Below are positions 28,127-50,832 of a DNA stretch of 64,000 bases, piece by piece (within the stretch, counting starts at the first letter, position 1; every line of letters starts with the position of its first letter). The stretch covers positions 1,632,001 to 1,696,000 of the forward strand of contig NZ_CP077770.1 in NCBI RefSeq assembly GCF_019134595.1, given 5' to 3'. This stretch comes from Pseudoalteromonas shioyasakiensis. GTDB lineage: Bacteria > Pseudomonadota > Gammaproteobacteria > Enterobacterales > Alteromonadaceae. The notes beneath the pieces were generated by a model. The model did no database searches and was not told where the DNA came from. It worked only from the letters and a program-made list of their open reading frames with translations. Position numbers and translations under genes: made by a program.

Positions 28127-29752
28127 TTAATTCAGGGTTGCGTAAAAGCAACCGAACCCGGGCAGAGTGACTGTATTATTGTTTAATTCAGCTGTGTGAT
28201 GAGAGATCTCAGTATGCTGTGAGGTCACAGAATCAGAAATTGTCAGTTCACTACTTTGTGCACCTAAGTTGAATGCACAAAGCATTTTAGTGCCGTTAAG
28301 CGTTCTATAAAAAGCAAGCACTGGCTCTTGCGTATCGATAAATTCAATGTCGCCTTCTAACAGTACATCCTTATCTTTACGCCATGCCATAAATTCACGG
28401 TAGGCATTCAAAATAGAATCTTTATCTTGATCTTGCGTATTTACCGCAACTGGTTTGTGCGCATCGCCCACAGGTAGCCAAGGTTTTACTGTTGAGAAGC
28501 CAGCTTGTTCAGCATCTGCGGCATCCCATGGCATTGGTGTACGACAACCGTCACGGCCTTTAAAGTTTGGCCAGAATGTAATGCCATATGGGTCTTGTAA
28601 GTCTTCAAATGCGACTTCTGCTTCACCTAAACCAAGTTCTTCACCTTGGTACATACATACGCTACCACGTAACGAAGCAAGTAGGGCTGTTAGCATCTTA
28701 CATTGCTGAGGCTCAATTTCTTCACCTTGACTCCAGCGGCTAGCAACACGCTCTACGTCGTGGTTACTAAATGCCCAGCACGGCCAGCCTTCAGTCATGC
28801 GCTGCTCTAAAGTGCTCACTGTGGTACGAATATATTCTGCGCTATAGTCGTTAGTAAGTAGCTCAAAGCTATAACCCATATGAAGTTTGTCACCACCTGA
28901 TGTGTACTCAGCCATGGTTGCCAGTGAATCTTCAGATGAGATTTCACCTAATGCAACTGTACCAGGGTACTTGTTTAGTAGGGCACGAATGTCCTGCATA
29001 AAACTAAGGTTTTCAGGTTGCGTATTATTGTAGTAGTGATACTGGAACGCATAAGGGTTGTCTTCGCTAAAGCCTCGGCCTTGACGCTTCTCTGGTGGCT
29101 TAGCTGGATTATCACGTAATTGAGCATCGTGATAGCAAAAGTTGATTGCATCTAAACGGAAGCCATCAACGCCTTTCTTCAGCCAAAACTCAACATTATC
29201 TAATACGGCTTTACGAACTTCAGGGTTATGAAAGTTTAAATCTGGCTGTTCAGCAAAGAAGTTATGTAAGTAATATTGACCACGACGCGGTTCCCATTGC
29301 CATGCAGGGCCACCAAAAATTGATAACCAGTTATTTGGTTGTGTGCCATCAGGCTTTGCATCAGCCCAAACGTACCAATCTGATTTGTCGTTGGTTTTAT
29401 CTTCACGGCTATCAAGGAACCATTGATGTTGATCTGAGGTATGGCTCAATACCTGATCAATAATGATCTTAATATCACGTTGATGAGCTTGTGCGATGAG
29501 TTCATCAAAATCGTCAAGGTTACCAAACAATGGGTCGATATCACGATAGTCACTGATGTCATAACCAAAGTCTTTCATTGGCGATTTAAAGAATGGTGAA
29601 ACCCAAATAGCATCAACACCTAGGCTTTTAATATAATCAATGCGATCAATGATACCTTTGATATCACCAATGCCATCGCCATTGGTGTCTTGGAAACTGC
29701 GCGGGTAAACTTGATAAATAACCGCACCTTTATACCACTGCTTTTGAGCCAT
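28127..29752 (-). CDS. Cytoplasmic alpha-glucosidase (GH13, oligo-1,6-glucosidase/alpha-glucosidase group)
   Basis: A 541-residue GH13 enzyme that hydrolyses short malto-oligosaccharides to glucose. Catalytic residues are visible: nucleophile Asp201 in GVDGFRLDAINF, acid/base Glu270 in VALGEISSED and transition-state Asp332 in FSNHDVERV. The N-terminus AQKQWYKGAVIYQVYPRSFQD is standard. No signal peptide is present, so it is cytosolic. I use the ATG at 29752, which follows GGAG at suitable spacing; the longer frame to 29797 has no support. It is divergent from the TonB receptor and has a TGCATACGTATGCA operator at 29864-29877, about 110 bases before its start. It would complete maltodextrin breakdown after uptake. 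Confidence 0.92.
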   Translation of the reverse strand: MAQKQWYKGAVIYQVYPRSFQDTNGDGIGDIKGIIDRIDYIKSLGVDAIWVSPFFKSPMKDFGYDISDYRDIDPLFGNLDDFDELIAQAHQRDIKIIIDQVLSHTSDQHQWFLDSREDKTNDKSDWYVWADAKPDGTQPNNWLSIFGGPAWQWEPRRGQYYLHNFFAEQPDLNFHNPEVRKAVLDNVEFWLKKGVDGFRLDAINFCYHDAQLRDNPAKPPEKRQGRGFSEDNPYAFQYHYYNNTQPENLSFMQDIRALLNKYPGTVALGEISSEDSLATMAEYTSGGDKLHMGYSFELLTNDYSAEYIRTTVSTLEQRMTEGWPCWAFSNHDVERVASRWSQGEEIEPQQCKMLTALLASLRGSVCMYQGEELGLGEAEVAFEDLQDPYGITFWPNFKGRDGCRTPMPWDAADAEQAGFSTVKPWLPVGDAHKPVAVNTQDQDKDSILNAYREFMAWRKDKDVLLEGDIEFIDTQEPVLAFYRTLNGTKMLCAFNLGAQSSELTISDSVTSQHTEISHHTAELNNNTVTLPGFGCFYATLN

Positions 29753-29863
29753 GTTTTTCTCCATCGTGACACTCAGTGTATGTAAACTGTTAGGCAACCG
29801 TTAATGCAATATGTTGCCGGAATGTCAAAAGCATACGTGAAGGGTGAGATACTGTAAAAACTC

Positions 29864-29877
29864 TGCATACGTATGCA
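29864..29877. promoter_or_regulatory. LacI-type operator, starch regulon, site 1
   Basis: TGCATACGTATGCA is a perfect 14-bp palindrome. The same core occurs before the TonB receptor, the second amylase and the LacI-type regulator gene. The central CG step is typical of LacI-family operators. Confidence 0.78.
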
Positions 29878-30289: not shown

Positions 30290-30303
30290 TGAATACGTAT
30301 GCA
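30290..30303. promoter_or_regulatory. LacI-type operator, starch regulon, site 2
   Basis: TGAATACGTATGCA, one base from the perfect palindrome of site 1, lies about 130 bases before the TonB-dependent receptor start. Confidence 0.78.
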
Positions 30304-30435: not shown

Positions 30436-33225
30436 ATGTCTATGTTCAAACCAAGTATATTAACTCTGGCTTTAACAGCCGCAGGTTTAAATAGCTTTGT
30501 AGCGTATGCTGCAGAAGAAGACCAAAAAGCAAAAAACGATAACGTTGAAGTTATCGAAGTAAAAGGTTTTCGTGGCAGTGTTGTAGAATCTATTAATACT
30601 AAACGCTTCTCTCCTGAAGTAGTTGAGTCAATCTCAGCAGAAGATATCGGTAAATTACCTGATTCATCAATTGCAGAATCAATCGCACGCCTTCCTGGTT
30701 TAACAGCACAACGTCTAGACGGTCGAGCTAGCCGTGTAAGTGTTCGTGGTTTCAGTGAAAACGAAAGCGCAACAACATTCAACGGTCGTGAGCAAGTTTC
30801 AATTGGTGACAACCGTGGCGTAGAATTTGACCTTTACCCATCAGAAATTATGAGTGGCGTAACGGTATATAAAACACCAAGCGCTGGTATTGAAGCAGAA
30901 GGTATTGCTGGCGTAATCGACATGCAAACTGTTAAACCTTTAAGCAAAGGTGAGCAAGTTATCATGTTCAACGGCCAATACGAGCAAACTGGTTTTGATA
31001 AATTAAACCCAGACGGTGACGATAAAGGTTTCCGTGGTACGGTTTCTTACATTGACCAATTTGCAGATGACACAATCGGTGTTGCATTCGCTTACAACAC
31101 GATGAGCTCTCCAAACCAAGAAAAACGTTGGAACTCTTGGGGTTACCCTGAATATACAGGTGAAGATGGTAATACGTACTCAATTTTAGGTGGTGCTAAG
31201 CCATTCGTACGTTCATCGACTCTTGAACGTGACACAGCCATGCTTGTTATTGAAGCTGCGCCGACTGATCGCCTAAACATGACATTCGATGCCTTATACG
31301 TTGATTTTTCTGATGAAAAAATCTTACGTGGTATTGAAGTGCCATTTGCTTGGGGCCAAGGTTCAATCGACCCAAGCTCAGCTGTAATTGATGCTGACTC
31401 TGGTTTCATCACAAGTGCAGTAACTGAGGGTCAACGTGTTGTTGTTCGTAACGACTACGAAGAGCGTAACGCTGAGCTAACTCAGTTTGGTTTTAATGCA
31501 AAATACGACATCAGTGATGACTGGTCAGTAGAATTTGACGTAAGCCGCTCTGAAGTTGAGCGTCAAATCTGGAGTATCGAAAGTTACTCAGGTACAGGCC
31601 GTGGTGATGCAAATGGTGTAGCTGATACGATTGGTTATGAGTTTGACGGTGGTAACACTGGCGCGCAATTCAGCCATAACCTTGATTACAGCGATTATGA
31701 TTTAATTCAACTTGGCGGCCCATTATCATGGGGTGCAAGTGCTGCACTTAACGATAAGTACGGCCTTACTGATACTGCTTATCAAAATACTGCGCAAGAT
31801 GGTTTCATCAACGCACCAGAAATCAATGATGAATTAAGTACATTAAAGCTTGCTGCAAGCAAAGTACTTGATAATGAATATATTAGCCGTGTGTCATTTG
31901 GTATGTCATACCGTGACCGTGAAAAGAGCAAGTTGTCTGAAGGTTACTTCATGACACTAAAAGACTTCTCTTTATCAAACCCTGGTATGTTATCTATCCC
32001 AGAACAATACCGCTTAGGGTCAGCTAGCCTTGATTTCATTGGTATGGGCAACATGGTTGCTTACGATACCAACGGTCTAGTGAATGATGGTTACTATAGC
32101 CTGCTTCAAGAAAGCTTAACTGATTCAAAACACAAGACACAGTCTTGGACAGTTCAAGAAGAAGTAACTGCGTTTTTCGCGCAAGCTGACATTAATGCTG
32201 AAATTGGTTCAATTCCTGTAACAGGTAACGTTGGTGTGCGTTATGTGAAAACTGAACAGTCTTCACAAGGCTTCGCTGCTAACACTGTGGATGGTTTAGT
32301 TGTTGTATCACCAACAGATGTAAGCCATGACTACAGCCACTTCTTGCCAAGCATCAACTTATCTTTTGCAATTGATGAAGAGCAAACTGTACGTTTTGGT
32401 GCTGCGAAAACGATTTCTCGTGCTCGCTTAGACGAAATGAACTCATCAGTTAACGCTTCTTACAATCAACAACCTGATGAAAACGGTAACTACTGGAGTG
32501 TATCAGGTGGTAACCCAGAGCTTGAGCCAAAAGAAGCAACTGGTTTTGATTTAAGCTACGAAAACTACTTCCATGAAGAAGGTTACTTCGCGGCAGCTGT
32601 GTTCTATAAAGATATCACTCAGTGGATTTTCGATGGTACTTATGAAATCGACATGAGCGGTGTAGCTGACCCGTCTACTGGTGAAATCCCTGAAACTTCA
32701 ACAGGTACAGGTTCAGGTAAAGTGAACGGTGGTTCTGGTGACTTATGGGGTTACGAGCTTTCATTAACACTACCATTCACTATGTTTAGCGAATCACTTG
32801 ATGGTTTTGGTTTAATCGCAAGCCATACAGGTGTTGAGCAAGACTTAACTGACCAAAATGGTAATGATTATGAGCTACCTGGTCTATCTGACCAAATTGA
32901 TAGCTTAACAGTTTACTTTGAGCGTAACGGTTTCCAAGCGCGTACTAGCATGCGTAAGCGTAGCGACTTTAAAGGTGACGTTTACGGTTTAGGTTTTGCG
33001 ACTACACAAGTTGACATTAAAGGCGAAACAATTTGGGATGCTCAAGTTGGTTATGACTTTAGCGAAGGCGGTGTAGAGAGCCTTGACGGTTTATCTGTAA
33101 CATTCCAAGTACAGAACATCACAGAAGAGCCGTTCACATCACTACAAGGTGATAATTCACTTCAAGTACGTGACTACCAAGACTACGGTCGTACATTCCT
33201 GTTAGGCTTCAGCTACAAGCTGTAA
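30436..33225 (+). CDS. TonB-dependent receptor, probable maltodextrin transporter of the outer membrane
   Basis: A 929-residue outer-membrane receptor. A signal peptide of about 25 residues is followed by a conserved VEVIEVKGFRGSV TonB-box-like segment, a plug domain (IGKLPDSSIAESIARLPGLTAQR, then RVSVRGF and YPSEIMSGVTVYKTPSAG) and a long beta-barrel ending in the C-terminal aromatic strand FLLGFSYKL. It belongs to the proteobacterial TonB receptor group related to Caulobacter MalA. Context (GH13, GH15, MFS permease and operators) points to malto-oligosaccharides as the substrate; this is inference. A hairpin and T run right after the gene would let it be made in larger amounts than the downstream genes. 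Confidence 0.9.
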   Translation: MSMFKPSILTLALTAAGLNSFVAYAAEEDQKAKNDNVEVIEVKGFRGSVVESINTKRFSPEVVESISAEDIGKLPDSSIAESIARLPGLTAQRLDGRASRVSVRGFSENESATTFNGREQVSIGDNRGVEFDLYPSEIMSGVTVYKTPSAGIEAEGIAGVIDMQTVKPLSKGEQVIMFNGQYEQTGFDKLNPDGDDKGFRGTVSYIDQFADDTIGVAFAYNTMSSPNQEKRWNSWGYPEYTGEDGNTYSILGGAKPFVRSSTLERDTAMLVIEAAPTDRLNMTFDALYVDFSDEKILRGIEVPFAWGQGSIDPSSAVIDADSGFITSAVTEGQRVVVRNDYEERNAELTQFGFNAKYDISDDWSVEFDVSRSEVERQIWSIESYSGTGRGDANGVADTIGYEFDGGNTGAQFSHNLDYSDYDLIQLGGPLSWGASAALNDKYGLTDTAYQNTAQDGFINAPEINDELSTLKLAASKVLDNEYISRVSFGMSYRDREKSKLSEGYFMTLKDFSLSNPGMLSIPEQYRLGSASLDFIGMGNMVAYDTNGLVNDGYYSLLQESLTDSKHKTQSWTVQEEVTAFFAQADINAEIGSIPVTGNVGVRYVKTEQSSQGFAANTVDGLVVVSPTDVSHDYSHFLPSINLSFAIDEEQTVRFGAAKTISRARLDEMNSSVNASYNQQPDENGNYWSVSGGNPELEPKEATGFDLSYENYFHEEGYFAAAVFYKDITQWIFDGTYEIDMSGVADPSTGEIPETSTGTGSGKVNGGSGDLWGYELSLTLPFTMFSESLDGFGLIASHTGVEQDLTDQNGNDYELPGLSDQIDSLTVYFERNGFQARTSMRKRSDFKGDVYGLGFATTQVDIKGETIWDAQVGYDFSEGGVESLDGLSVTFQVQNITEEPFTSLQGDNSLQVRDYQDYGRTFLLGFSYKL

Positions 33226-33250: not shown

Positions 33251-33282
33251 GCCCTTGTGATTTGTTTTACAAGGGCTTTTTT
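33251..33282 (+). terminator. Terminator after the TonB-dependent receptor (possible partial read-through)
   Basis: Stem GCCCTTGT (33251-33258) with ACAAGGGC (33269-33276) and six T residues. The halogenase-like gene starts 49 bases later with no obvious operator, so some read-through is likely. Confidence 0.8.
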
Positions 33283-33330: not shown

Positions 33331-34827
33331 ATGGAAACAAAAAAAATAACCAAGGTCGTGATTGCCGGTGGTGGCACAGCAGGGTGGATAACGGCTGCTT
33401 TACTTAATAAAGTGTTAGGCAAAGTGCTCGATATCACCTTGGTAGAGTCAGCAGAGATCGGCACTGTTGGTGTAGGCGAAGCGAGTATTCCACCTATTTT
33501 GCATCTAAATGGTGCGTTAGGCATTTCTGAAAAAGAATTTATTAAGGCTACTGGAGCCACGATTAAGCTTGGTATTGAGTTTGAAAATTGGCGCAGCCAA
33601 GGCCACAGCTATATGCATGCCTTTGGTGAGATAGGTAAGGATTTTCCGTTTTGTGAGTTTTATCATTTTTGGTTAAAAGCAAATCAAGCTAATAATGCGC
33701 CTGATTTTTGGGATTTTTCACTTAATTATCAAGCTGCCAAAGCGGATAAATTTGCTCACCTTAAGCACATTCCTAACACTCAGTTGGCGGGCTTACATTA
33801 TGCCTACCATTTTGATGCCACTCGATATGGCGAATTCTTAAAGGAATTAGCGCAATCACGGGGCGTAAAACGCATTGAAGGCAAAATTGAATCGGTAAAT
33901 CAATGCCATGAAAGCGGGTATATTCGCTCTTTGCTACTTAAAAGTGGCGAGCAAATAGACGGCGACTTATTTATTGATTGCACCGGTTTACGTGCTTTAT
34001 TGATAGAACAAACTCTTAATACTGGCTTTGAAGATTGGTCACATTGGTTACCATGTGATAGTGCAATTGCGGTGCAAAGTGAATCAGCTTCAGATGCAAT
34101 TCCTTATACACGTTCAATTGCAAGAGGCTCAGGCTGGCAGTGGCAAATACCATTACAGCATCGTGTAGGAAACGGCATTGTATATTCTTCTCGTTTCTTA
34201 TCAGACGAAGCGGCAAAGCAACAGCTTTTGGATAACTTACCGGCTAAACCACTGACAGAGCCACGCGTTATTAAATTTAAAACAGGCCGCCGTTTAAAGC
34301 AGTGGCATAAAAATGTGGTATCGGTTGGCTTATCAAGCGGATTTTTAGAGCCATTAGAATCGACCAGTATTCATTTAATTCAAAGTGCAGCCATTCGTTT
34401 AATTAAGTTTTTTCCTCATCAAGGTATTAAGCAATGCCTTGTGGATGAATTTAATCAACAAAGTAAAACAGAATTTGAGCGAATTCGTGACTTTATTATT
34501 CTTCATTACAAGCTTACTGAGCGTGAAGACAGTGCGTTTTGGCGTTTTTGTAAAGGCATGGATATTCCAAGCAGTCTTAAAAAGAAAATTGAGCTATTTA
34601 AAACCAGCGGCAAAATTGTCCGAGAAGACGATGAACTATTTGCCGAAGTTGCGTGGCAGCAAGTGATGATAGGGCAAGGGCTAATTGCAGAGGATCACCA
34701 TCCATTAACTGATGCGTTATCAGACGAGCAATTAAATGAGTTATTTAGCAATCTAAAAACCTTGATTAATAGCACTGTCGAGCAGCTGCCGACCCACAGT
34801 CAATTCTTAGAAAAAGTACAAAATTAA
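33331..34827 (+). CDS. Flavin-dependent tryptophan-halogenase-family protein in the starch locus
   Basis: A 498-residue FAD-binding protein with N-terminal GGGTAGW (dinucleotide fold, residues 13-19), GVGEASIPP, the catalytic lysine Lys79 in [13 protein letters not shown] at the same position as in PrnA, and the halogenase motif WxWxIP at W269-Q-W271-Q-I273-P274. The key halogenase elements are therefore intact. It has no signal peptide. Next to a TonB receptor and amylases, it belongs to the group of halogenase-like genes found in carbohydrate loci of Alteromonadales, Caulobacterales and Xanthomonadales, whose true substrate is unknown. The periplasmic amylase gene starts two bases after its stop, so the two are one unit. 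Family is certain; activity is not. Confidence 0.88.
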
Positions 34828-34829
34828 CT

Positions 34830-36680
34830 ATGAAAAAAACACAATCATTTTTAGCGCTAACGACCGCATTTACGCTTTTCAACTCGACAGCCAGTTTTGC
34901 TATTACCGCGTCACCAGAAAACTGGTGGGTGGGCATGCAAAATGACTCGTTACAAGTCATGCTTTACGATAACAATATTGCTAACAAAGCGTGGCAAATG
35001 ATGCCTTACAAAGGCGTTGAGTTTAAAGGGGTGACAACAACGAATAACCCTAATTACGCGTTTTTAGATTTAACCATCAGCGATAATGCAAAGGCGGGAA
35101 CACTAACCTTTAAAGCTAAAGATGGCACAGAATTTACTTACCCATTAAATACCCGTGATAAGCAAAGTGCCAATCGTCATGGCTTTACAAATAAAGACAC
35201 CCTTTATTTAATCAATCCTGATCGCTTTGTAAATGGTGACCCAAGCAATGACACCGTTGCAGGTATGCAGGAGGCTGCAAACCCAAGCTTTAAAGGTGGT
35301 CGACATGGTGGTGATATTCAAGGTGTTATTAATAGCTTAGATTATCTTGAGGACCTCGGCGTGACTCAACTTTGGTTAACACCTGTGCTTGAAAATAACA
35401 TGCCAAGTTATTCTTATCATGGTTATGCCATTACTGACTTTTACAAAGTTGATCCGCGTATGGGCAGTAATGCGCTTTATAAAACCTTATCTGTAGAGGC
35501 GAAAGAGCATGGTATCGGTTTAGTGATGGACATGGTACTTAACCACTTTGGTTCATCGCATCAGTGGATGAGTGACATGCCAACAGCTGATTGGGTTAAC
35601 TTTGATGGCAAGTTTGAAAACGGTAAAAATGCCACTAGTCACGCCAGACAAACAATCCAAGACCCTCATGCGAGCCAATACGACAAACGTCAATTTAATG
35701 ATGGTTGGTTTGTTGAGTCGATGCCTGATTTAAATCAGCGCCAGCCGTTACTATCAACGTACTTGATTCAAAATGCCATTTGGTGGATTGAATACGCCAA
35801 CTTAAGCGGCATTCGTGTTGATACCTATTCATACTCAGATAAAGCATTTTTAGCTGATTGGACTAAAGCGATTATGACCGAGTATCCAAACTTTAATATT
35901 GTCGGTGAGGAGTGGACAACTAACCCAGCGATTGCTTCTTATTGGCAGCGCGGCAAAGTAAATCAAGATGGTTATACCTCTGATTTACCAAGTGTGATGG
36001 ACTTTTCATTACAAGAAGCGCTGATCCAAGCACTTAACGAAGATGAAAGCTGGAATACTGGGTGGGTAAAAGTGTATCAATCGCTCGCGAATGACTTTTT
36101 ATATGCTGATACTGATAACATTTTAGTGTTTGCAGATAACCATGATATGAGCCGTGTTTACACTGAGCTGGGTCAAGACCTAGCAAAAACTAAATTAGCC
36201 ATGACACTGCTGTTAACAACTCGCGGTATTCCACAAATCTATTACGGTACAGAGCTGCTGCTCGATAACACGCCTAGTAATGATCACGGTGATATTCGTA
36301 TTGACTTCCCAGGTGGTTTTAAAGGCCAAAAAGCGAATGCCTTCACAGGTAAGGGGCTTTCAGCTGATCAGCAAGAGATGTTAGCTAGCATGAAAAAACT
36401 GCTTAAGCTGCGCCAAGAAAAACCAGCACTGAGCGAAGGCCGTTTAATGCATTTTTCACCAAAACAAGGCGTTTACAGCTATGTGAGAGAGCACAATGGC
36501 CAAACTGTATTGGTTATTCTTAACAAAAACCAACAAGCCATTGATTGGGATTTAAGCTACATGCAAGAAGTGCTGAAAGGCAATAATAAAGGACGTGATT
36601 TAATCAGCGAAAAACGCGTTGATCTTGCGGCGCCAATCCGCTTAAAAGCTATGCAAGCACGCTTAATCGAGCTTGAATAA
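34830..36680 (+). CDS. Periplasmic alpha-amylase/neopullulanase-type enzyme (GH13)
   Basis: A 616-residue secreted GH13 enzyme. The signal peptide (about 24 residues, ending ASFA) is followed by an N-terminal beta-sandwich domain of the cyclomaltodextrinase/neopullulanase type (ENWWVGMQND start), then the TIM barrel. Catalytic residues are Asp331 (GIRVDTYSYSD), Glu360 (IVGEEW) and Asp439 (DNHDMSR). A C-terminal beta domain follows. It should cut imported maltodextrins in the periplasm, as SusA does in Bacteroides. The start codon is two bases after the halogenase stop. Confidence 0.9.
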   Translation: MKKTQSFLALTTAFTLFNSTASFAITASPENWWVGMQNDSLQVMLYDNNIANKAWQMMPYKGVEFKGVTTTNNPNYAFLDLTISDNAKAGTLTFKAKDGTEFTYPLNTRDKQSANRHGFTNKDTLYLINPDRFVNGDPSNDTVAGMQEAANPSFKGGRHGGDIQGVINSLDYLEDLGVTQLWLTPVLENNMPSYSYHGYAITDFYKVDPRMGSNALYKTLSVEAKEHGIGLVMDMVLNHFGSSHQWMSDMPTADWVNFDGKFENGKNATSHARQTIQDPHASQYDKRQFNDGWFVESMPDLNQRQPLLSTYLIQNAIWWIEYANLSGIRVDTYSYSDKAFLADWTKAIMTEYPNFNIVGEEWTTNPAIASYWQRGKVNQDGYTSDLPSVMDFSLQEALIQALNEDESWNTGWVKVYQSLANDFLYADTDNILVFADNHDMSRVYTELGQDLAKTKLAMTLLLTTRGIPQIYYGTELLLDNTPSNDHGDIRIDFPGGFKGQKANAFTGKGLSADQQEMLASMKKLLKLRQEKPALSEGRLMHFSPKQGVYSYVREHNGQTVLVILNKNQQAIDWDLSYMQEVLKGNNKGRDLISEKRVDLAAPIRLKAMQARLIELE

Positions 36681-36695
36681 TTGCAACTAATAGGC

Positions 36696-36709
36696 TGAAT
36701 ACGTATGCA
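36696..36709. promoter_or_regulatory. LacI-type operator, starch regulon, site 3
   Basis: TGAATACGTATGCA, identical to site 2, with a half-site CCGTATGCA at 36718-36726. It lies 16 bases after the first amylase stop and 63 before the second amylase start. A possible promoter is TTGCAA at 36681 and TATGCA at 36704, spaced by 17 bases and overlapping the operator. Confidence 0.75.
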
Positions 36710-36771: not shown

Positions 36772-38649
36772 ATGATGACAACATACAAACTAACTGCGTT
36801 AGTAGTGGCTTCGGTTTTAGGTTTAACTGCCTGTGGTAACGATGCGCCAGTACAGCAGAACACGCAACAGCAGCAATCAGAATCTAGCCAAGCAGCTATC
36901 TCTAAGCCTGTGGTATACCAAGTATTCACTCGATTATTTGGTAACACTAACACCACCAATAAACCGTGGGGCACATTAGAAGAAAATGGAGTAGGTAAAT
37001 TTGCTGATTTTAATGATGCTGCATTACAAGGTATTAAAGAGCTAGGTACAACACATGTTTGGTACACTGGTGTACCACGTCATGCTTTAGTAACTGATTA
37101 TACCGAATACGGTTTGTCACAAGATGACCCTGATGTTGTAAAAGGCCGTGCAGGCTCACCTTATGCAGTGAAAGACTATTACGATGTTAATCCTGATTTA
37201 GCAATTAACCCTGAGCGCCGCTTAGAAGAGTTTGTTGAGCTAATCAATCGTACTCATGAGCACGGTATGAAAGTTGTTATTGATATTGTGCCAAACCACG
37301 TAGCGCGGAATTACGAGTCAGTCGCCAAGCCTGAAGGCGTAAAAGATTTTGGTGCTGAAGATGACACGACGAAAACCTATGCTCGCGATAATAATTTTTA
37401 TTATGTAACAGGGCAGTCATTTCAAGTGCCAACAAGCGATAACTACCAAGTGTTAGGTGGTAACCTGCATCCTCTTGCTGATAATCAGTTTGCTGAAACC
37501 CCAGCAAAGTGGACGGGTAATGGGGCACGTGCCGCTAAACCTGACATTAATGATTGGTACGAAACAGTTAAAATCAATTACGGTGTGAAACCAGATGGTA
37601 GCTACGACTTCCCAACACTACCAGCTGATTACGCAGATAAAGATTACCGTGCGCACTATGCCTTTTGGCAAGATAAAGATCTACCAAATAGCTGGTATAA
37701 ATTCCGCGATATCGCGCTTTATTGGTTAGATAAAGGTGTTGATGGTTTCCGTTATGATATGGCCGAGATGGTGCCTGTTGAGTTTTGGAGCTTTTTAAAT
37801 TCATCAATCAAGATGCAAAAAAGCGATGCCTTTATTTTGGCTGAGGTATATAACCCAACGCTTTATCGCCCTTATATCCAGCAAGGTAAAATGGATTACC
37901 TTTACGACAAAGTCGGTTTTTACGACACGGTTAAAGCTGTGATGCAAGGCAAGCAATCAGCGGATACTATTTTCGATATTCAAAGCCAAGTGGCGGATAT
38001 CGAAGAGCATATGCTGCACTTTTTAGAAAATCATGATGAACAACGCATTGCTAGCCCAGATTTCGCGGGTAGCAGTGAAAAAGGTAAGCCAGCGATGGTG
38101 GTATCTACCCTGATGACACGCTCACCAACCTTACTTTATTTTGGTCAGGCTGTCGGTGAAGATGGCTCTGAGGACGGTGGTTTTGGCGACCCAACACGTA
38201 CCAGTATTTTCGATTATATGGGTGTGCCTGCGCATCAAGCGTGGATGAATAATGGTAAATTCGATGGCGGTGCGCTTTCAAAGCAGCAAGCTGATCTTCG
38301 CGCTTACTACACGAAGTTAATGTCGTTAAACACACTTCCTGCCATTGTTGGTGGTGACATGCAAGCGGTTGAACTGACAGGCTCAGAGCAAGTCATTGCG
38401 TTCACACGTAAGCTAGGTCAACAACTAGTGCTTGTAGTAAGTAACTTTTCAGAGAACCCGCAAAATGTTGAGCTAACACTTAACCAAACGTTGTTACCTA
38501 AGCTTAACCACAGCGGTTTAACGTTAACTGATAACCTAGAAAATCATGCCGACATTGTGATTCCTGACGCATCTACGAAGGCGCCAATTCAATTACAACT
38601 GAACGGCTTAAGCAGTGCAGTATTTACCTTAAAGGCTGACTATGAATAA
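36772..38649 (+). CDS. GH13 alpha-amylase lipoprotein
   Basis: A 625-residue GH13 enzyme with a lipoprotein signal (lipobox LGLTA-C21 followed by GND). The residue after Cys is Gly, so by the usual Lol rule it should go to the outer membrane. After a Gln/Ser-rich linker comes the barrel with VVYQVFTRLFG, the calcium-site VIDIVPNHVAR, and Asp329 (DGFRYDMAEM), Glu358 (LAEVYN) and Asp422 (LENHDEQR). Two adjacent ATG codons start the frame; the second at 36775 is equally possible. It overlaps the MFS permease gene by eight bases. Likely job: trimming starch or long maltodextrins at the cell envelope. Confidence 0.9.
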   Translation: MMTTYKLTALVVASVLGLTACGNDAPVQQNTQQQQSESSQAAISKPVVYQVFTRLFGNTNTTNKPWGTLEENGVGKFADFNDAALQGIKELGTTHVWYTGVPRHALVTDYTEYGLSQDDPDVVKGRAGSPYAVKDYYDVNPDLAINPERRLEEFVELINRTHEHGMKVVIDIVPNHVARNYESVAKPEGVKDFGAEDDTTKTYARDNNFYYVTGQSFQVPTSDNYQVLGGNLHPLADNQFAETPAKWTGNGARAAKPDINDWYETVKINYGVKPDGSYDFPTLPADYADKDYRAHYAFWQDKDLPNSWYKFRDIALYWLDKGVDGFRYDMAEMVPVEFWSFLNSSIKMQKSDAFILAEVYNPTLYRPYIQQGKMDYLYDKVGFYDTVKAVMQGKQSADTIFDIQSQVADIEEHMLHFLENHDEQRIASPDFAGSSEKGKPAMVVSTLMTRSPTLLYFGQAVGEDGSEDGGFGDPTRTSIFDYMGVPAHQAWMNNGKFDGGALSKQQADLRAYYTKLMSLNTLPAIVGGDMQAVELTGSEQVIAFTRKLGQQLVLVVSNFSENPQNVELTLNQTLLPKLNHSGLTLTDNLENHADIVIPDASTKAPIQLQLNGLSSAVFTLKADYE

Positions 38650-40126
38650 TAACAAACCAACGCTAAGCTTTTGGCAAATATGGAATATGTGTTTTGGATT
38701 CCTTGGAATCCAATTTGGCTTTGCATTACAAAACGGTAATGTAAGCCGTATTTTTCAAACATTAGGTGCCAATGTTGATGATATTCCTATTCTTTGGGTT
38801 GCAGCGCCACTCACAGGTCTTATCGTACAACCTATTATTGGTTATTGGAGTGATAAAACATGGAATAAGTTAGGTCGTCGTCGTCCGTTCTTTTTCTATG
38901 GGGCTATTTTAACGACGTTATCGTTATTCATTATGCCTAACTCACCAAGCCTGTGGATTGCGGCGGGTATGTTATGGATCATGGATGCGTCAATTAACGT
39001 GACTATGGAGCCATTCCGTGCCCTTGTCAGTGATAACCTGCCTAAAAAACAACGTGCAACTGGTTATGCAATGCAGAGCTTCTTCATTGGTATCGGTGCG
39101 GTTGTCGCGTCTGCATTACCTTGGATGATGACTAACTGGTTTGATATTGCCAATACAGCACCTGCAGGGCAAATTCCAGATTCTGTAAAATTCTCGTTTT
39201 ACTTTGGCGCAGTAGTTTTAATTATTGCTGTGTTTTGGACCGTATTTACTACTAAAGAATATTCACCAGAAGAACTTGAAAGCTTTCACGAACAAGAGCA
39301 AAGCGATGACTCGGGCGAGGTTCAAAGTGATGTAAACTTTAACAAAGGCGCTGCAATCTTTACGGTTCTTGGTCTTGTGGTACTTGGTGTTGTTACGGGG
39401 TTATCGCTTGAAAAAGAGCTTTATTTACTTGCTGGTGGTTTGATTAGCTTTGGTGTTATTCAATTTATTGCTGGTGCTTTAAAGGCTAAAAACGCAACCA
39501 GTGGTGGCTTTTATCAGGTTGTGAATGATGTATTCACTATGCCAGAAACGATGAAACAATTGGCTTGGGTACAATTTTTTAGCTGGTTCTCATTATTTGC
39601 AATGTGGATTTACACCACATCGGCAGTAACTAGCTTCCACTACGGCAGCAGTGATACAAGCTCTCTTGCCTACAATAACGGTGCGGATTGGGTTGGTGTA
39701 TTGTTTGCCGCTTACAATGGTTTTGCTGCCATTGCAGCACTGTGTATTCCGGTTATCGTTAAAAAAGTAGGGCTAAAAATGGCTCACGCTATCAACCTAG
39801 TGCTAGGTGCATTGGGTCTGGTCAGCTTCATTATTATCAAAGATCCAAGTTTACTGATCTGGCCAATGATTGGAGTAGGGTTTGCTTGGGCGTCAATTCT
39901 ATCTTTACCATACGCAATGTTAAGTACCTCAGTACCAAGTAAAAAAATGGGTGTGTACATGGGTATCTTTAACTTCTTTATTGTTATTCCGCAGCTTTTA
40001 GCGGCAAGCGTATTAGGCCTAATTTTACGTCACTTTTTTGATAATCAACCGATTTATGCGTTAGTGCTAGGTGCAGTGTCATTCGTACTAGCAGCGGTCG
40101 CTGTACTGCGCGTTAAGCAACAATAA
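38642..40126 (+). CDS. MFS sugar permease of the GPH/SLC45-like type (probable maltose/maltodextrin importer)
   Basis: A 494-residue inner-membrane transporter with about 12 hydrophobic helices. The N-terminus FWQIWNMCFGFLGIQFGFALQNGNVSRIFQTLGA and the loop motif LGRRRPFFF between helices 2 and 3 resemble sucrose/maltose proton symporters. A central charged loop (about residues 205-240) divides the two halves. Start overlaps the preceding amylase gene by eight bases, so translation is coupled. It would carry malto-oligosaccharides or maltose released in the periplasm into the cytoplasm, where the divergent alpha-glucosidase acts. Glucose made by the adjacent glucoamylase may need another importer. 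Substrate is inferred from context. Confidence 0.88.
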   Translation: MNNNKPTLSFWQIWNMCFGFLGIQFGFALQNGNVSRIFQTLGANVDDIPILWVAAPLTGLIVQPIIGYWSDKTWNKLGRRRPFFFYGAILTTLSLFIMPNSPSLWIAAGMLWIMDASINVTMEPFRALVSDNLPKKQRATGYAMQSFFIGIGAVVASALPWMMTNWFDIANTAPAGQIPDSVKFSFYFGAVVLIIAVFWTVFTTKEYSPEELESFHEQEQSDDSGEVQSDVNFNKGAAIFTVLGLVVLGVVTGLSLEKELYLLAGGLISFGVIQFIAGALKAKNATSGGFYQVVNDVFTMPETMKQLAWVQFFSWFSLFAMWIYTTSAVTSFHYGSSDTSSLAYNNGADWVGVLFAAYNGFAAIAALCIPVIVKKVGLKMAHAINLVLGALGLVSFIIIKDPSLLIWPMIGVGFAWASILSLPYAMLSTSVPSKKMGVYMGIFNFFIVIPQLLAASVLGLILRHFFDNQPIYALVLGAVSFVLAAVAVLRVKQQ

Positions 40127-40138
40127 TAAGGACACACC

Positions 40139-42538
40139 ATGAAAAAATTTAATCTCATTACAGCAAGCTTGTTAGCGTTAGGTTTAACAGCTTGTAGTTC
40201 AGAGCAATCAGTTAATACAGCAGTTGAGCAGGTGTCTGCGCCAGGAGCACCGGGTGTTGAGCCTTTTTGGGCATACTCTGGTAAAACAGGTATTGGTACA
40301 TCTTACGAGCAATACCAAGACGGCCACTATAGCGACGCAGCTGCTACTGGCAAAGTATCAAAAGTTTGGTTTTCAATCGCGAAAGGCATGATCACCGAAA
40401 CCATGTTTGGTTTAATTCACCAAGCACAAATCAAAGATATGCAGTTTGTTGTAGTTGGTAAAGACTTTACCGTTACAGAGAACGATGATCTCGATGTAAG
40501 CATTGATTATTTATACAAAGACGACGCAGGGCGCCCATTATCGCTTGCTTACAAAGTAGTAAGTAAAGATAAGCAAGGTCGTTTCACCTTAGAAAAACAT
40601 ATTTTTACAGATCCAAACGGCCAAACATTGTTTGTTCGTAGCGTGTTTAATACTGACCTTGAAGGTGTAAAAGCCTACGTTAATGTGAATCCTTACATTG
40701 ATAATAACGGTTTAGATGACTTTGCAAAAGTGACTGATGAGGGTCTAGTTGCTTGGCAAGATGATAGCTTTTTATCTTTACAAGCCGCTCAACCATTTAA
40801 AAAGGCAAGCGTTGGCTTTACCGGTGTAAGTGATGGCTTAAAAGAGTTAAAAGCATCGCAATCATTATCAACGACTTACCAAAGTACTGGTGATAAGTCG
40901 GGTAATGTGAGCTTACTTGCAGAGCTTGGTGAAGTATCAAAAAACACCACTTTTGATTTAGCTTTAAGCTTTGGTAACTCTGAAGCTGCAAGCTTAAAAG
41001 AAGGTCAAGCAAGTTTAAACCAAGGCTACCAAAAAGTACTTGCTGCATATAACGGTGAGGGTGCTGCAATTGGTTGGCAAGACTACTTAACGAGCCTTGA
41101 ACCTTTGAGCACATTAACTAACAGCACCGCAGATAATGGTAAGTTGCTTTATACCAGCGCCATGGTGTTAAAAGCGCAAGAAGATAAAACTCATGCTGGT
41201 GCTTTAATTGCGTCACTGTCTAACCCTTGGGGTGAAACAGTATCAGCCAAAACAGGTTCTACCGGTTATAAAGCGGTTTGGGTACGTGATTTCTATCAAG
41301 TAGCAATGGCATTTATGGCCATGGGTGATACACGCACTGCTAAAACGGCGTTTGAATATTTAGAAAAAGTACAAGTAACAGATAACACACCAGGCAATGG
41401 TGGTGACACGGGTTGGTTCTTACAAAAGACTCACGTTGATGGTGAGCTTGAGTGGGTAGGTGTTCAGCTTGACCAAACAGCAATGCCAATTATGTTAGCG
41501 TGGAAACTACATCAAGCTGACGTACTTAGCGATCAAGAGCTGACAGATTGGTATGGCAAAATGTTAAAACCAGCTGCTGATTTCTTAGTTGATGGTGGCC
41601 TTGCGAAAATTCTTTGGAACGACACACAAATTACACCGCCAGCAACGCAACAAGAGCGTTGGGAAGAACAAAATGGTTTCTCTCCATCAACAACTGCAGC
41701 GGTTGTTGCAGGCCTTGTGACAGCTGCTGATATTGCTAAAAAAGCAGGTGACACTAAAAATGCAGAGCGTTACATATCAACGGCTAAAACCTACAACAGT
41801 GAAATTGAAAGCACCATGTTTACGACTAAAGGTAACCTTAAGTCTGAAAACAGCGATGGTGAATATTTCATTCGTATCGGTCAAGACAAAGATCCAAACT
41901 CATCAACCACACTTAATGCTAATAACGGGCGTGAAGGCTTTGATAAAAAGCAAATCCTTGATGGTGGTTTCTTAGAGCTTGTACGTTATGGTGTTCGTGA
42001 TGCACTTGCTGCAAGCATTGTAAAAACATTACCAGAATACGATGACGAAACCTTAGTCGATAATCTGCAAGTGCGTTACACCTTTAATTTTGCTGATGGC
42101 TCGGGTTCATTCCCAGGCTACCGCCGCTATGGTAACGATGGTTACGGTGAAGATGAAGTGACAGGTAACAACTATGCCGAAGGTGGCAATAACACCCCTG
42201 GTCAACGTGGTCGTGTATGGCCGTTTTTCACAGGTGAACGCGGTCACTATGAAATCGCTGCAGCAAACGCAACTAATAGCCTTGATGCGATGAAGCAACA
42301 AGCGATTAAAGACACCTATGTAAAAGGTATGGAAGCATTTGCCAATGAAGGCATGATGTTACCTGAACAAGTTTGGGATGGCGTAGGCAATAATAAAGCA
42401 GGCTATCAGTTAGGTGAGGGTACAAACTCAGCCACACCACTGGCTTGGACTCACGCTGAATACATTAAGTTACTCCGCTCAGTGAGTGATAAACATGTAT
42501 GGGATCATTACCCAGTGGTTGAAAAAGCCCTCAAGTAA
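40139..42538 (+). CDS. Glucoamylase lipoprotein (GH15)
   Basis: A 799-residue exo-acting glucan 1,4-alpha-glucosidase that releases glucose from chain ends. Lipobox LGLTA-C19 then SSEQ marks an envelope lipoprotein. An N-terminal beta-sandwich domain of the glucodextranase type (SGKTGIGTSYEQY start) precedes the alpha6/alpha6 barrel with VWVRDFYQVAMAF, DGELEWVGVQLDQTAMP (general acid region), FPGYRRYGNDGYGEDE and the conserved end TPLAWTHAEYIKLLRSV. The length and domain order fit bacterial GH15 enzymes. It is the last gene of the operon starting at 36772 and is followed by a terminator. Confidence 0.92.
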   Translation: MKKFNLITASLLALGLTACSSEQSVNTAVEQVSAPGAPGVEPFWAYSGKTGIGTSYEQYQDGHYSDAAATGKVSKVWFSIAKGMITETMFGLIHQAQIKDMQFVVVGKDFTVTENDDLDVSIDYLYKDDAGRPLSLAYKVVSKDKQGRFTLEKHIFTDPNGQTLFVRSVFNTDLEGVKAYVNVNPYIDNNGLDDFAKVTDEGLVAWQDDSFLSLQAAQPFKKASVGFTGVSDGLKELKASQSLSTTYQSTGDKSGNVSLLAELGEVSKNTTFDLALSFGNSEAASLKEGQASLNQGYQKVLAAYNGEGAAIGWQDYLTSLEPLSTLTNSTADNGKLLYTSAMVLKAQEDKTHAGALIASLSNPWGETVSAKTGSTGYKAVWVRDFYQVAMAFMAMGDTRTAKTAFEYLEKVQVTDNTPGNGGDTGWFLQKTHVDGELEWVGVQLDQTAMPIMLAWKLHQADVLSDQELTDWYGKMLKPAADFLVDGGLAKILWNDTQITPPATQQERWEEQNGFSPSTTAAVVAGLVTAADIAKKAGDTKNAERYISTAKTYNSEIESTMFTTKGNLKSENSDGEYFIRIGQDKDPNSSTTLNANNGREGFDKKQILDGGFLELVRYGVRDALAASIVKTLPEYDDETLVDNLQVRYTFNFADGSGSFPGYRRYGNDGYGEDEVTGNNYAEGGNNTPGQRGRVWPFFTGERGHYEIAAANATNSLDAMKQQAIKDTYVKGMEAFANEGMMLPEQVWDGVGNNKAGYQLGEGTNSATPLAWTHAEYIKLLRSVSDKHVWDHYPVVEKALK

Positions 42539-42550
42539 TACCTTATTAAT

Positions 42551-42576
42551 AAGCCGCAATTCATTTGCGGCTTTTT
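42551..42576 (+). terminator. Terminator of the amylase-permease-glucoamylase operon
   Basis: Stem AAGCCGCAA (42551-42559) with TTGCGGCTT (42565-42573) followed by T residues. Confidence 0.82.
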
Positions 42577-42598: not shown

Positions 42599-43537
42599 AT
42601 GTTTAAGAAATTAATTTGTTTAACCTTGATGCTATTTTCAGGTGTCACTTTTGCAAATGTGATAATCCCTGAGGTGTCAGAAGGGCATCTTGATGTTAAG
42701 AAAAACTTTAGTTCAAAGTATGTTGAGAGCCGTTTTTTAAATATCTGGTTACCACCAGGTTATAGCAACACACGTAAGTATGATGTTTTATATATGCATG
42801 ATGGTCGAATGTTGTTTGATGCCAAAACAACATGGAATAAACAAGAGTGGCAAGTTGATGAAGTTGCCGCTAAGTTAATTCAAAGCGGTAAAGTTAAGCC
42901 ATTTATAGTTGTTGGCATTCCAAATGCGCTAGAAAATCGTCATAGTGAGTATTTTCCACAAAAAGTATTTGAAAGTTTAGCAAAGCAAAAACAAGCAAAT
43001 TTATATGAGTTAGAGAGGTATCCAGGGCAAAAGCTGTTTTACTCTAAGGTATATTCAGATAACTATGCTCGCTTTGTCGTTGAAGAAGTCATTCCTTTTA
43101 TTGAGAAAAACTATTCAGTAAATAAAGGTTTTGAGCACCGGTATATTGCAGGATCAAGCATGGGAGGGCTTATTTCTTGGTATACACTACTTCAATATCC
43201 TAATGAGTTTGCTGGTGCAATTTGTATGTCTACGCATTGGCCAGGAATTTTTACCTATGACGAACAAGTATTTACTGCTTTCAAGCAGTATATTTCTGAC
43301 AATATTGGCAAATTAACAACACAAAAAGTTTACTTCGATTATGGAGACGGCACATTAGACTCAATGTATCCTGATCTTCAAAAACAAATTGATAATGTAT
43401 TTATGCAACACGGTTATCCAGCTTCGTTATGGCAGAGTCAATATTTCCCAGGTGCGACGCATGCAGAAGTTGATTGGGCTAAGCGATTGCAAATCCCACT
43501 TGAGTTTATGTTCAGAGCAAACGCGCAAGCACTGTAA
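42599..43537 (+). CDS. Secreted esterase-D-like alpha/beta hydrolase
   Basis: A 312-residue protein with a signal peptide (about 19 residues, ending TFA-N). It belongs to the putative esterase family that includes enterochelin esterase Fes/IroE and bacterial feruloyl esterases. The fold is shown by NIWLPPGYSN, VLYMHDGRMLFD, the nucleophile elbow GSSMGG with Ser187 and a C-terminal His288 in GATHAEVDWAKR; the acid residue is probably an Asp near YFDYGDG. It starts 22 bases after the terminator of the starch operon and has no starch operator of its own. It may remove ester groups from polysaccharides; the true substrate is unknown. Confidence 0.75.
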   Translation: MFKKLICLTLMLFSGVTFANVIIPEVSEGHLDVKKNFSSKYVESRFLNIWLPPGYSNTRKYDVLYMHDGRMLFDAKTTWNKQEWQVDEVAAKLIQSGKVKPFIVVGIPNALENRHSEYFPQKVFESLAKQKQANLYELERYPGQKLFYSKVYSDNYARFVVEEVIPFIEKNYSVNKGFEHRYIAGSSMGGLISWYTLLQYPNEFAGAICMSTHWPGIFTYDEQVFTAFKQYISDNIGKLTTQKVYFDYGDGTLDSMYPDLQKQIDNVFMQHGYPASLWQSQYFPGATHAEVDWAKRLQIPLEFMFRANAQAL

Positions 43538-43686
43538 TAATTGATTGATTAAAAGAATCGAACTGCTTCTGATAGGGTAAATGCCTGTATTAGAGGTATT
43601 CATAGCACGAAGCTATAACTATGAAGTAAAAACTTAATTGCATACCAAATATTTATTGGGCATGGCTTTTGGTAAAAGGAAAAATA

Positions 43687-49633: not shown

Positions 49634-50653
49634 TTAAACACTCGAACCGCGAATAATTAACCGCGGTGGTAAAAGGGTATTCTCTACATCTTCACCACGA
49701 ATGAGTTTGAGCAGGTTATCGACCAACATTTGACCGGCGAGGGTGGTGTCTTGTTGTACGGTGGTAAGTGGTGGGTTTACAAAGCTGGCAACCGCAATGT
49801 TATCAAAACCAACAACATGTACATCATCAGGAACCTTGATTTTTGCTTCTTTCAGTGCGCGAATAGCACCAATAGCAATAAGATCACTGGCGGCAAACAA
49901 TGAGTTAAAACGAATGTTATTTGCTATGAGGGAACGAGTCGCGTGATAGCCTGATTCTTCTGTAGAAATAGCATTTGCCATCTTACGTTCGTTTAAAGCC
50001 ACGCCTTTGGCTAAGAACGCATCTTTAAAGCCTTGGTAGCGAGCAAAAAACTCAGGGCTATGATCAGAAGCATCACCAATAAATGCACAATCAGTTCTAC
50101 CGGTTGCAAGTAAATGCTCAGCTGCTAATTTACCACCGCCGTAGTTATCGCAGCTGACCGTTAAATCTGGACGGTTATCTACGCTTGCACCCCAACAGAC
50201 AAACTTAGTGTGTTGGTCAATTAAGGTTTTAAATTTAGGTTGATAATCGAGGTAATCACCATAACCGAGCAAGATTAGGCCATCTGCACGGTGGCTGTCT
50301 TCATAATCGGCTTGCCAATCAGAGCTGCTCGACTGAAACGATACCAGTAAGTCGTAGCCTTCTTTTGCACAGGCTCTCGTAATACTGCCCAGCATCGCCA
50401 AAAAGAAAGGGTTTATTTGTGATTCATCCGAAGTGGGATCTTCAAATAATAACAGAGCGAGGGTGCTACTTTGTTGAGTTCTTAAGTTACTGGCATTTTT
50501 ATCAACTTTATAGTTGAGCTGTTTTGCTACCTCATGAACACGTCGACGCGTTTCTTCGTTGACCAAAGGGCTATTTCGCAGCGCGCGAGACACGGTTGAC
50601 TGCGACACACCCGCATAATGTGCAATGTCAAAAGATGTCGCCTTACCTTTCAT
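49634..50653 (-). CDS. LacI-family regulator, probable repressor of the starch/maltodextrin genes
   Basis: A 339-residue LacI-type protein: N-terminal helix-turn-helix (ATSFDIAHYAGVSQSTVSRAL) and hinge, then a periplasmic-binding-like ligand domain (LALLLFEDP, CDNYGGGKLAAEHLL, FAASDLIAIGAIRAL, HVVGFDNIAVAS). The longer open frame from 50755 would add 34 residues before the HTH, which is unusual, so I take the ATG at 50653. A starch-type operator (50819-50832) lies about 166 bases upstream, consistent with autoregulation and control of the locus at 28-42 kb. Divergent to glk. The ligand is probably maltose or a maltodextrin, by inference. Confidence 0.85.
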   Translation of the reverse strand: MKGKATSFDIAHYAGVSQSTVSRALRNSPLVNEETRRRVHEVAKQLNYKVDKNASNLRTQQSSTLALLLFEDPTSDESQINPFFLAMLGSITRACAKEGYDLLVSFQSSSSDWQADYEDSHRADGLILLGYGDYLDYQPKFKTLIDQHTKFVCWGASVDNRPDLTVSCDNYGGGKLAAEHLLATGRTDCAFIGDASDHSPEFFARYQGFKDAFLAKGVALNERKMANAISTEESGYHATRSLIANNIRFNSLFAASDLIAIGAIRALKEAKIKVPDDVHVVGFDNIAVASFVNPPLTTVQQDTTLAGQMLVDNLLKLIRGEDVENTLLPPRLIIRGSSV

Positions 50654-50818
50654 ATGGTTACCAAATAACAGAAGTAGTAATTGCCATTTTCGGCTATTTA
50701 ATATTTTTTTCAAGCTATTTGTGACAAGCGGCATGTGTGTGGCTGTTCTGTACACAGCTAGGTATTTTTTATGCGTATATAAATGCTTTTTCGATACTTA
50801 ATACGCAGGTTTTATCAA

Positions 50819-50832
50819 TAAATACGTATGCA
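50819..50832. promoter_or_regulatory. LacI-type operator, starch regulon, site 4
   Basis: TAAATACGTATGCA shares the ATACGTATGCA core with the three sites in the starch locus. It lies between the LacI-type regulator gene and glk, 49 bases (centre to centre) from the glucose-type operator. Confidence 0.72.

Follow-up and report, generated by a model that had tools for sequence, protein, structure and literature searches.

Gene neighborhoods compared across proteobacteria indicate that the link between a class of flavin-dependent halogenases and TonB-dependent receptors is real. The member studied here lies at 33331..34827 of the window (the whole 64,000-nucleotide stretch of Pseudoalteromonas shioyasakiensis DNA that was analyzed). 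We consider it rather probable that this enzyme works as a receptor-coupled halogenase, akin to BrvH and Xcc4156 and dedicated to the TonB receptor encoded before it, whatever its substrate. BrvH, Xcc4156 and their numerous relatives have no known job, and their class is now tied to TonB receptors that stand beside diverse glycan enzymes. The enzyme belongs to a known class, and its genetic behavior makes the substrate question testable: it becomes a direct test on one protein, the receptor, in a marine bacterium that is harmless.

An Intact Halogenase in a Starch Utilization Locus

The locus around the halogenase gene contains the following features (coordinates, strand, description and basis).

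28127..29797, minus strand: divergent GH13 alpha-glucosidase-type gene, upstream (profile match)
29864..29877, no strand assigned: second operator, a perfect palindrome in the intergenic region between the divergent GH13 gene and the receptor (sequence)
30290..30303, plus strand: LacI-type operator TGAATACGTATGCA, 146 bp before the receptor start (sequence)
30436..33225, plus strand: TonB-dependent receptor (TIGR01782), the conserved partner (profile match, homologue search)
33251..33276, plus strand: terminator-like hairpin with T tract in the receptor-halogenase gap, a probable attenuator (sequence)
33331..34827, plus strand: flavin-dependent halogenase, PF04820, BrvH/Xcc4156-like, 498 aa (ORF, profile match, alignment)
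34830..36680, plus strand: GH13 gene, cyclomaltodextrinase-type (PF00128, PF09087, PF10438), not conserved in this neighbor position (Pfam)
36696..36709, plus strand: operator before the second GH13 gene (sequence)
36772..38649, plus strand: second GH13 gene, alpha-amylase family (GH13b) (Pfam)
38642..40126, plus strand: MFS sugar transporter, GPH-like (profile match)
40139..42538, plus strand: GH15 glucan 1,4-alpha-glucosidase, i.e., glucoamylase (profile match)
49634..50755, minus strand: LacI-family regulator, the probable owner of the operator (profile match)
50819..50832, no strand assigned: operator with one mismatch, between the LacI regulator and glucokinase (sequence)

The original prediction described an intact tryptophan-halogenase-like enzyme, and this description is confirmed. 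The reading frame opens with ATG, has no internal stops and encodes 498 aa that match PF04820 at full length (E = 8.1e-191, profile positions 1–457 of 458, Pfam). Alignment places GGGTAG at residues 13–18, the predicted lysine exactly at K79, WQWQIP at 269–274 and EPLEST, which includes E343, at 340–345. K79, E343 and both tryptophans of the WxWxIP motif are identical to those of the window gene in 82/82 rows from the best 80 of 562 named loci, two of which hold a second copy, and the catalytic Lys and Glu are both retained in 139 of 144 other halogenase rows (short frames and loci L175–L232 were omitted from this alignment). One halogenase frame in each of the arrays L130, L282, L286 and L308 has neither residue, and one frame in L129 has the Lys without the Glu; these are possibly pseudo-enzymes, partners or misread frames. 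The gene looks to be under purifying selection (dN/dS of 0.035 and 0.078 in the two computable of six comparisons). Because the FAD motif starts at residue 13 and leaves no space for a signal peptide, the halogenase is predicted to be cytoplasmic.

The genome encodes a second receptor-linked halogenase (C1:2473636-2475126, L115; 38% identity), whose neighbors are DUF6445, SapC, asparaginase-, 6-phosphogluconolactonase- and zwf-type genes. Two more PF04820 matches on contig C2 (41 and 32 bits) were set aside, as a single 413-aa FAD-oxidoreductase-like frame holds both.

The placement given by the original prediction, behind a TonB receptor and just before an amylase gene in a starch operon, also holds. 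The receptor ends at 33225, 105 nt ahead of the halogenase start, and the halogenase stop is separated by 2 nt from the first of two GH13 genes, which are followed by the MFS and GH15 genes. The receptor belongs to the TonB-Xanth-Caul family (TIGR01782; 547.5 bits, cut-off 310) and has, by eye, a signal-peptide-like N-terminus. Some 7 kb past the glucoamylase come the LacI regulator and glucokinase. Judged by gene content (a receptor with plug and barrel, glycan enzymes, an inner-membrane transporter and, by operator sequence, putative LacI-type control), this is a TonB-dependent carbohydrate utilization (CUT) locus. It resembles the MalA/CUT loci of Caulobacter and Xanthomonas, in which a TonB receptor drives maltodextrin uptake, in combining a TonB-Xanth-Caul receptor with a LacI regulator, GH13 enzymes and an MFS transporter; the word “halogenase” has 0 occurrences in the main text of the Xanthomonas CUT paper (PMC1790865).

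The surroundings were expected to be free of natural product genes, and among 20 window proteins scanned against Pfam (19 of the 40 listed ORFs plus one protein of 149 aa) we found no NRPS, PKS or other obvious gene of this kind. The nearest to one is an OsmC-YcaO-YcaO_C fusion at 47254–49440. The glucoamylase is followed by genes for a putative esterase (PF00756) and a sialate-type acetylesterase (PF03629) at 42599–44580, which are present in only some relatives, with a terminator-like hairpin (42551–42573) in between.

Relationship to Characterized Halogenases

The closest solved chain is PDB entry 9luq, “Tryptophan halogenase” (717.7 bits, residues 4–496 aligned), for which we found no naming paper among the open-access literature matches listed. 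The closest characterized enzymes by sequence are Xcc4156 of Xanthomonas (6y1w, 543.6 bits) and BrvH from a marine metagenome/Brevundimonas (6frl, 476.6 bits), followed by PyrH (291.4 bits). The alignment to BrvH runs without gaps over the short substrate loop, and kinship and loop together assign the window enzyme to the BrvH/Xcc4156 type. PrnA, RebH and PyrH share its family, FAD motif and catalytic Lys and Glu, but they reach at most 291.4 bits and possess a tryptophan-holding loop that the window enzyme lacks. In RebH, the loop residues Y454, Y455, E461 and F465 hold the amino and carboxyl groups of Trp (PMC5945002). The window enzyme aligns gaplessly to loop-less BrvH and has no counterpart of the PyrH YY pair, so that the long loop of free-tryptophan halogenases (PrnA/RebH/PyrH) is missing, as is their natural-product cluster setting: starch genes surround it, and the 20 window proteins scanned include no natural-product gene.

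BrvH is reported to turn over indole slowly, and Xcc4156 to accept indole and its derivatives but not free tryptophan (PMC5945002, PMC7336383). Relatives of this type are described as favoring bromide as halide and, as substrates, indoles other than free Trp; for BrvH and the Xanthomonas enzymes, the native substrates are given as unknown, the active site as very open and a peptide substrate as a hypothesis (PMC7336383). The activity of Xcc4156 and BrvH is known solely on indole-type test substrates, whereas for the window gene we describe a receptor link, an exchange and a regulation. The main texts of PMC5945002 and PMC7336383 do not use the word “TonB” at all (0 occurrences), and we found no literature linking these halogenases to TonB receptors among the open-access matches listed, although it may be in print elsewhere.

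In a FastTree phylogeny of 106 halogenases, part of the available sequences, a branch with a support of 96 sets six comparison enzymes without a receptor (two belonging to pyrrolnitrin clusters, two from Streptomyces, and those of Pseudonocardia and Acinetobacter) apart from the 100 others, which include the window gene and some enzymes that have no receptor nearby.

The Receptor Is the Constant Neighbor of Halogenase Orthologues

We compared the window with the best 80 of 562 named genome loci, whose halogenases are 59–98% identical to that of the window; those at 91–98% are all from Pseudoalteromonas. A TonB receptor lies upstream of the halogenase in 80/80 of these loci and directly so in 77. 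In 79 of the 80, the best receptor frame is at least 44% identical to the window receptor (28% in L114). The three indirect cases have a second halogenase (L082), two genes (L114) or a short antisense frame that we take to be spurious (L108) in between. The gene 3′ of the halogenase varies across the same best 80 of 562 loci: it may be the first GH13 gene, the second GH13 gene, an aldo/keto reductase, another receptor or a gene on the opposite strand. Since the downstream gene differs in many loci, and the receptor stands upstream in all 80 and is exchanged together with the halogenase (see below), the closeness to the amylase gene that the original prediction stressed is incidental, and we rejected the amylase as the functional partner. 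One gene cluster, whose representative from L061 is an aldo/keto reductase, directly follows the halogenase in 10 loci (L056, L057, L058, L061, L063, L067, L071, L077, L095 and L105).

Within 60 relatives and the window's own genome, a receptor homologue (E≤1e-150) adjoins a halogenase in 31 of 32 cases when positions are compared by hand; the exception, G048, has a distant receptor homologue with no halogenase beside it. The 36 same-genus genomes, own included, contain either both orthologues (28) or neither (8), and none is mixed. A close pair is present in 27 of the 28 and a divergent pair in G018. In three of the 28 (G003, G009 and G016), the pair is present but the operon's transporter has no match. 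The halogenase is inherited with the preceding receptor rather than with the starch enzymes, which points to the receptor when one starts looking for what the enzyme acts on. The receptor match of G016 (C1:2177901-2180681) has an internal TAA next to an intact halogenase, which reflects either decay or a sequencing error.

Receptor and Halogenase Are Exchanged Together

Six of the eight genomes that have neither orthologue keep the starch operon (L139–L144). In these loci, the divergent GH13, GH13b, MFS and GH15 proteins are 64–76% identical to those of the window, while the receptor is 30% and the halogenase 33–35% identical. This is a clear case, read from gene content and identity, of receptor and halogenase having been replaced jointly in a starch operon that otherwise stayed similar; a single event may lie behind all six. 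A second, milder exchange is seen in L127 of G018 (receptor 51%, two halogenases 52% and 35%, MFS 88%).

Protein distances across the 41 starch loci that possess all six genes correlate more closely between halogenase and receptor (r = 0.97) than between halogenase and the four other genes (0.57–0.67). This signal comes from the exchanged loci. After removal of these seven, r for the 34 remaining loci is 0.88 for halogenase and receptor versus 0.95 for halogenase and GH13b. With the four other genes held constant, the partial correlation for the receptor is 0.22, a value reached in 2 of 2000 permutations; that for GH13b, with the remaining three held constant, is 0.62. Thus, the 34 unexchanged loci display no special correlation between halogenase and receptor.

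Generality of the Association

Around other halogenases, 100 regions were chosen from hit lists, 60 at the genus and order levels (L115–L174) and 40 at the phylum level (L273–L312). For 71 of 81 halogenase genes in the former group and 55 of 63 in the latter, a TIGR01782-like receptor is no more than 6 kb away, and it is upstream on the same strand in 67/81 and 36/63. Of the 18 genes without one, five are directly preceded by a TonB receptor of a different kind, which brings the genes with a TonB-dependent receptor within 6 kb or directly upstream to 131/144; none was found within 6 kb for 13/144. SapC, cupin-like or DUF6445 genes (family names based on one representative each) occur within 3 kb of 37/81 and 37/63 halogenase genes. 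A stereotyped run of receptor, in some cases a halogenase, SapC, cupin-like gene and halogenase, sometimes with DUF6445 added, recurs in alpha- and gammaproteobacteria (L124, L126, L277, L284, L297, L298, L334 and others) and places several such proteins next to a single receptor.

Receptors of this family work without a halogenase as well, since 82 of 115 TIGR01782 rows have none beside them; the other 33, spread over 13 of 17 genomes, do (assigned by hand, with at most 30 candidates scored per genome). The window's own genome has a second TonB receptor, 33% identical to that of the window and without a halogenase (C1:289213-291993, L314). Mapped onto a tree of 148 receptors, the linked state requires 13 changes, of which well-supported branches account for at least 11. 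This tree and the residue scan described below included 17 of the 78 orthologous receptors (every fifth plus that of the window) and 89 other linked ones; receptors count as “linked” here when a halogenase, SapC or cupin gene is no more than 2.6 kb away, and frames below about 730 aa were omitted.

From 91 matching plasmid records we chose 17, of which 11 are of the TonB-dependent receptor type and 6 serve as comparison. The receptor is adjacent to the halogenase or in the same gene run in 11/11 chosen records of the former type, twice on the other strand, and the neighbors of the pair are annotated as GH95, GH3, GH43, GH16, GH97 plus amylase, GH68, alpha-L-fucosidase or beta-glucosidase. A receptor is listed in 0/6 comparison records (32.3–38.2% identity); three of these are from Actinomycetes, which have no outer membrane, so only the other three (Burkholderia, Azotobacter and Acinetobacter) are informative. 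Two of the 11 linked records are similarly low in identity (38.9% and 34.9%). In the alphaproteobacterium Qipengyuania citrea, genes for LacI, receptor, halogenase, two amylases, GH97 and a further halogenase follow one another in an arrangement that resembles the window. The association had been described as recurring in marine bacteria; it does recur, but not in marine bacteria alone, as shown by Asticcacaulis from pond water and Sphingomonas from plants.

Regulation

The four operators listed above are matches to the palindrome TGMATACGTATKCA with at most one mismatch, against 0.04 expected in the window. Genome-wide, this palindrome has 8 perfect places and 12 with at most one mismatch, compared to 4 for the pattern read backwards. 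Sites outside the window lie beside a GH97-like gene (by eye), before a TonB receptor that has no halogenase and before a GH13-like gene; the remaining ones have no evident starch tie. The receptor in question is that of L314, where a perfect operator within about 200 bp upstream provides a natural control in the same regulon. The LacI protein encoded at 49634–50755 presumably binds the operator.

Across the best 80 of 562 orthologue loci, an operator (at most two mismatches, fixed core) is found within 600 bp before the receptor in 68/80, versus 41/400 other upstream stretches taken from these loci, further starch genes possibly among them, and in 0/80 receptor-halogenase gaps. A strong hairpin with a T tract is present in 50/78 orthologous gaps versus 9/390 shuffled gaps. 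In the exchanged loci, operators occupy similar positions, and the gap shows, by eye, hairpins whose sequence differs. The operator before the receptor, its absence from the gap and the hairpin in the gap together imply that the halogenase is most likely transcribed from the receptor's promoter through an attenuator, and that receptor and halogenase are probably co-regulated. A lack of co-regulation with the starch genes, which the original prediction had named as a point against itself, is therefore not what the operators and hairpins suggest.

Candidate Substrates and Alternative Explanations

The proposed mechanism can be outlined as follows. Release of a LacI-type repressor, presumably by maltodextrin, would allow transcription to start before the receptor, and the hairpin 3′ of the receptor would pass only part of it into the halogenase, giving little enzyme per much receptor. 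The cytoplasmic halogenase would draw FADH2 from a flavin reductase encoded elsewhere and pass HOBr or HOCl via K79 to an aromatic residue. A site without the free-tryptophan loop would suit a peptide or protein substrate, the likeliest of which would be the receptor precursor en route to export.

Flavin-dependent halogenases attack electron-rich aromatics, which makes a glucan an unlikely substrate; halogenation of a glycan, one of the options raised in the original prediction, is hence chemically unlikely. The receptor is constant while the neighboring glycan enzymes vary between loci, and similar starch enzymes remain where the pair has been exchanged; both observations disfavor the imported cargo and favor the receptor, or something linked to it. 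The constancy of the receptor, with no conserved peptide gene seen beside the halogenase among frames of at least 90 aa, makes its precursor the first candidate; the original prediction did not name it as a substrate, and we regard it as a better lead than glycan or cargo. That the precursor actually is the substrate is a guess, possible but doubtful, and the brief stay of an outer-membrane protein in the cytoplasm counts against it, as do the majority of receptors that do without a halogenase and the lack of a residue that sets linked receptors apart. A peptide-substrate gene hidden in the receptor-halogenase gap is unlikely, as L079, L090 and L095 have a gap of only 33 nt (frames of at least 90 aa were covered). 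More broadly, and still more tentatively, a large class of proteobacterial “tryptophan halogenases” may consist of receptor-maturation enzymes that halogenate aromatic residues of their own TonB receptors before export, each matched to its receptor and sometimes aided by SapC, cupin-like or DUF6445 proteins. If the receptor is the substrate, this would amount to a novel form of protein modification in the outer membrane, and for the class as a whole halogenation would become a post-translational modification of outer-membrane transporters.

Several other explanations were weighed against a dedicated partnership with the receptor. The enzyme could produce a small halogenated aromatic such as bromoindole, a signal or deterrent made when the receptor's sugar is present, with the tie to the receptor reduced to shared regulation. 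The reported activity of BrvH and Xcc4156 on indole (PMC5945002, PMC7336383) and the position of the gene inside a probably sugar-regulated transcription unit agree with this, as do halogenase transcripts, partly assigned to Colwellia, that were read as competition in an oil/dispersant experiment (PMC11337851). We nevertheless think it unlikely, given that the recurring neighbors seen are receptor and carbohydrate genes, that many genomes have several halogenase copies and that different halogenases accompany different receptors in the same operon, which a common signal would not need. It is quite improbable that the halogenase modifies cargo imported by the receptor, which the original prediction had also considered; such cargo could be, for example, an aromatic group on algal or plant glycans. 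Although the receptor adjoins the halogenase in nearly all examined loci and glycan enzymes are often nearby, glucans have no electron-rich aromatic ring, the same pairing stands beside very different glycan enzymes (GH95, GH3, GH43, GH16 and others), and the operon in which the pair was replaced kept its enzymes and hence presumably its cargo.

A repurposed flavoenzyme that has lost halogenation and acts as an oxidase or as a sensor of flavin or halide state would be in keeping with the flavin reductase data: one is listed in 0/11 plasmid regions of the TonB-dependent receptor type versus 4/6 comparison regions, in a gene table that is incomplete, and the genome's single match to PF01613, the one flavin reductase family searched, is on the other contig. 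The complete conservation of K79, E343 and both WxWxIP tryptophans in the 82 rows described above and the reported halogenation by the relatives BrvH and Xcc4156 (PMC5945002, PMC7336383) render this very improbable. There is, finally, only a slim chance that the two genes are neighbors by history and have moved together merely because they touch. Adjacent genes are indeed exchanged together, and at loci without an exchange the halogenase does not track the receptor more closely than it tracks GH13b; but the pairing occurs in gamma- and alphaproteobacteria, including with receptors of other subfamilies, and the linked state has repeatedly changed on the receptor tree (13 times, at least 11 well supported).

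Returning to the receptor as a possible substrate, we compared 106 linked with 42 unlinked receptors and found no residue universal to the linked ones; the largest frequency difference is 0.44 in either direction. Should the target residue vary between halogenases, a universal one would not be expected, which leaves the scan as weak evidence either way. Three tyrosines, Y134, Y384 and Y708, are invariant in the 78 orthologous receptors, are Tyr in all six exchanged ones and are rare in unlinked receptors; they may simply bind alpha-glucan.
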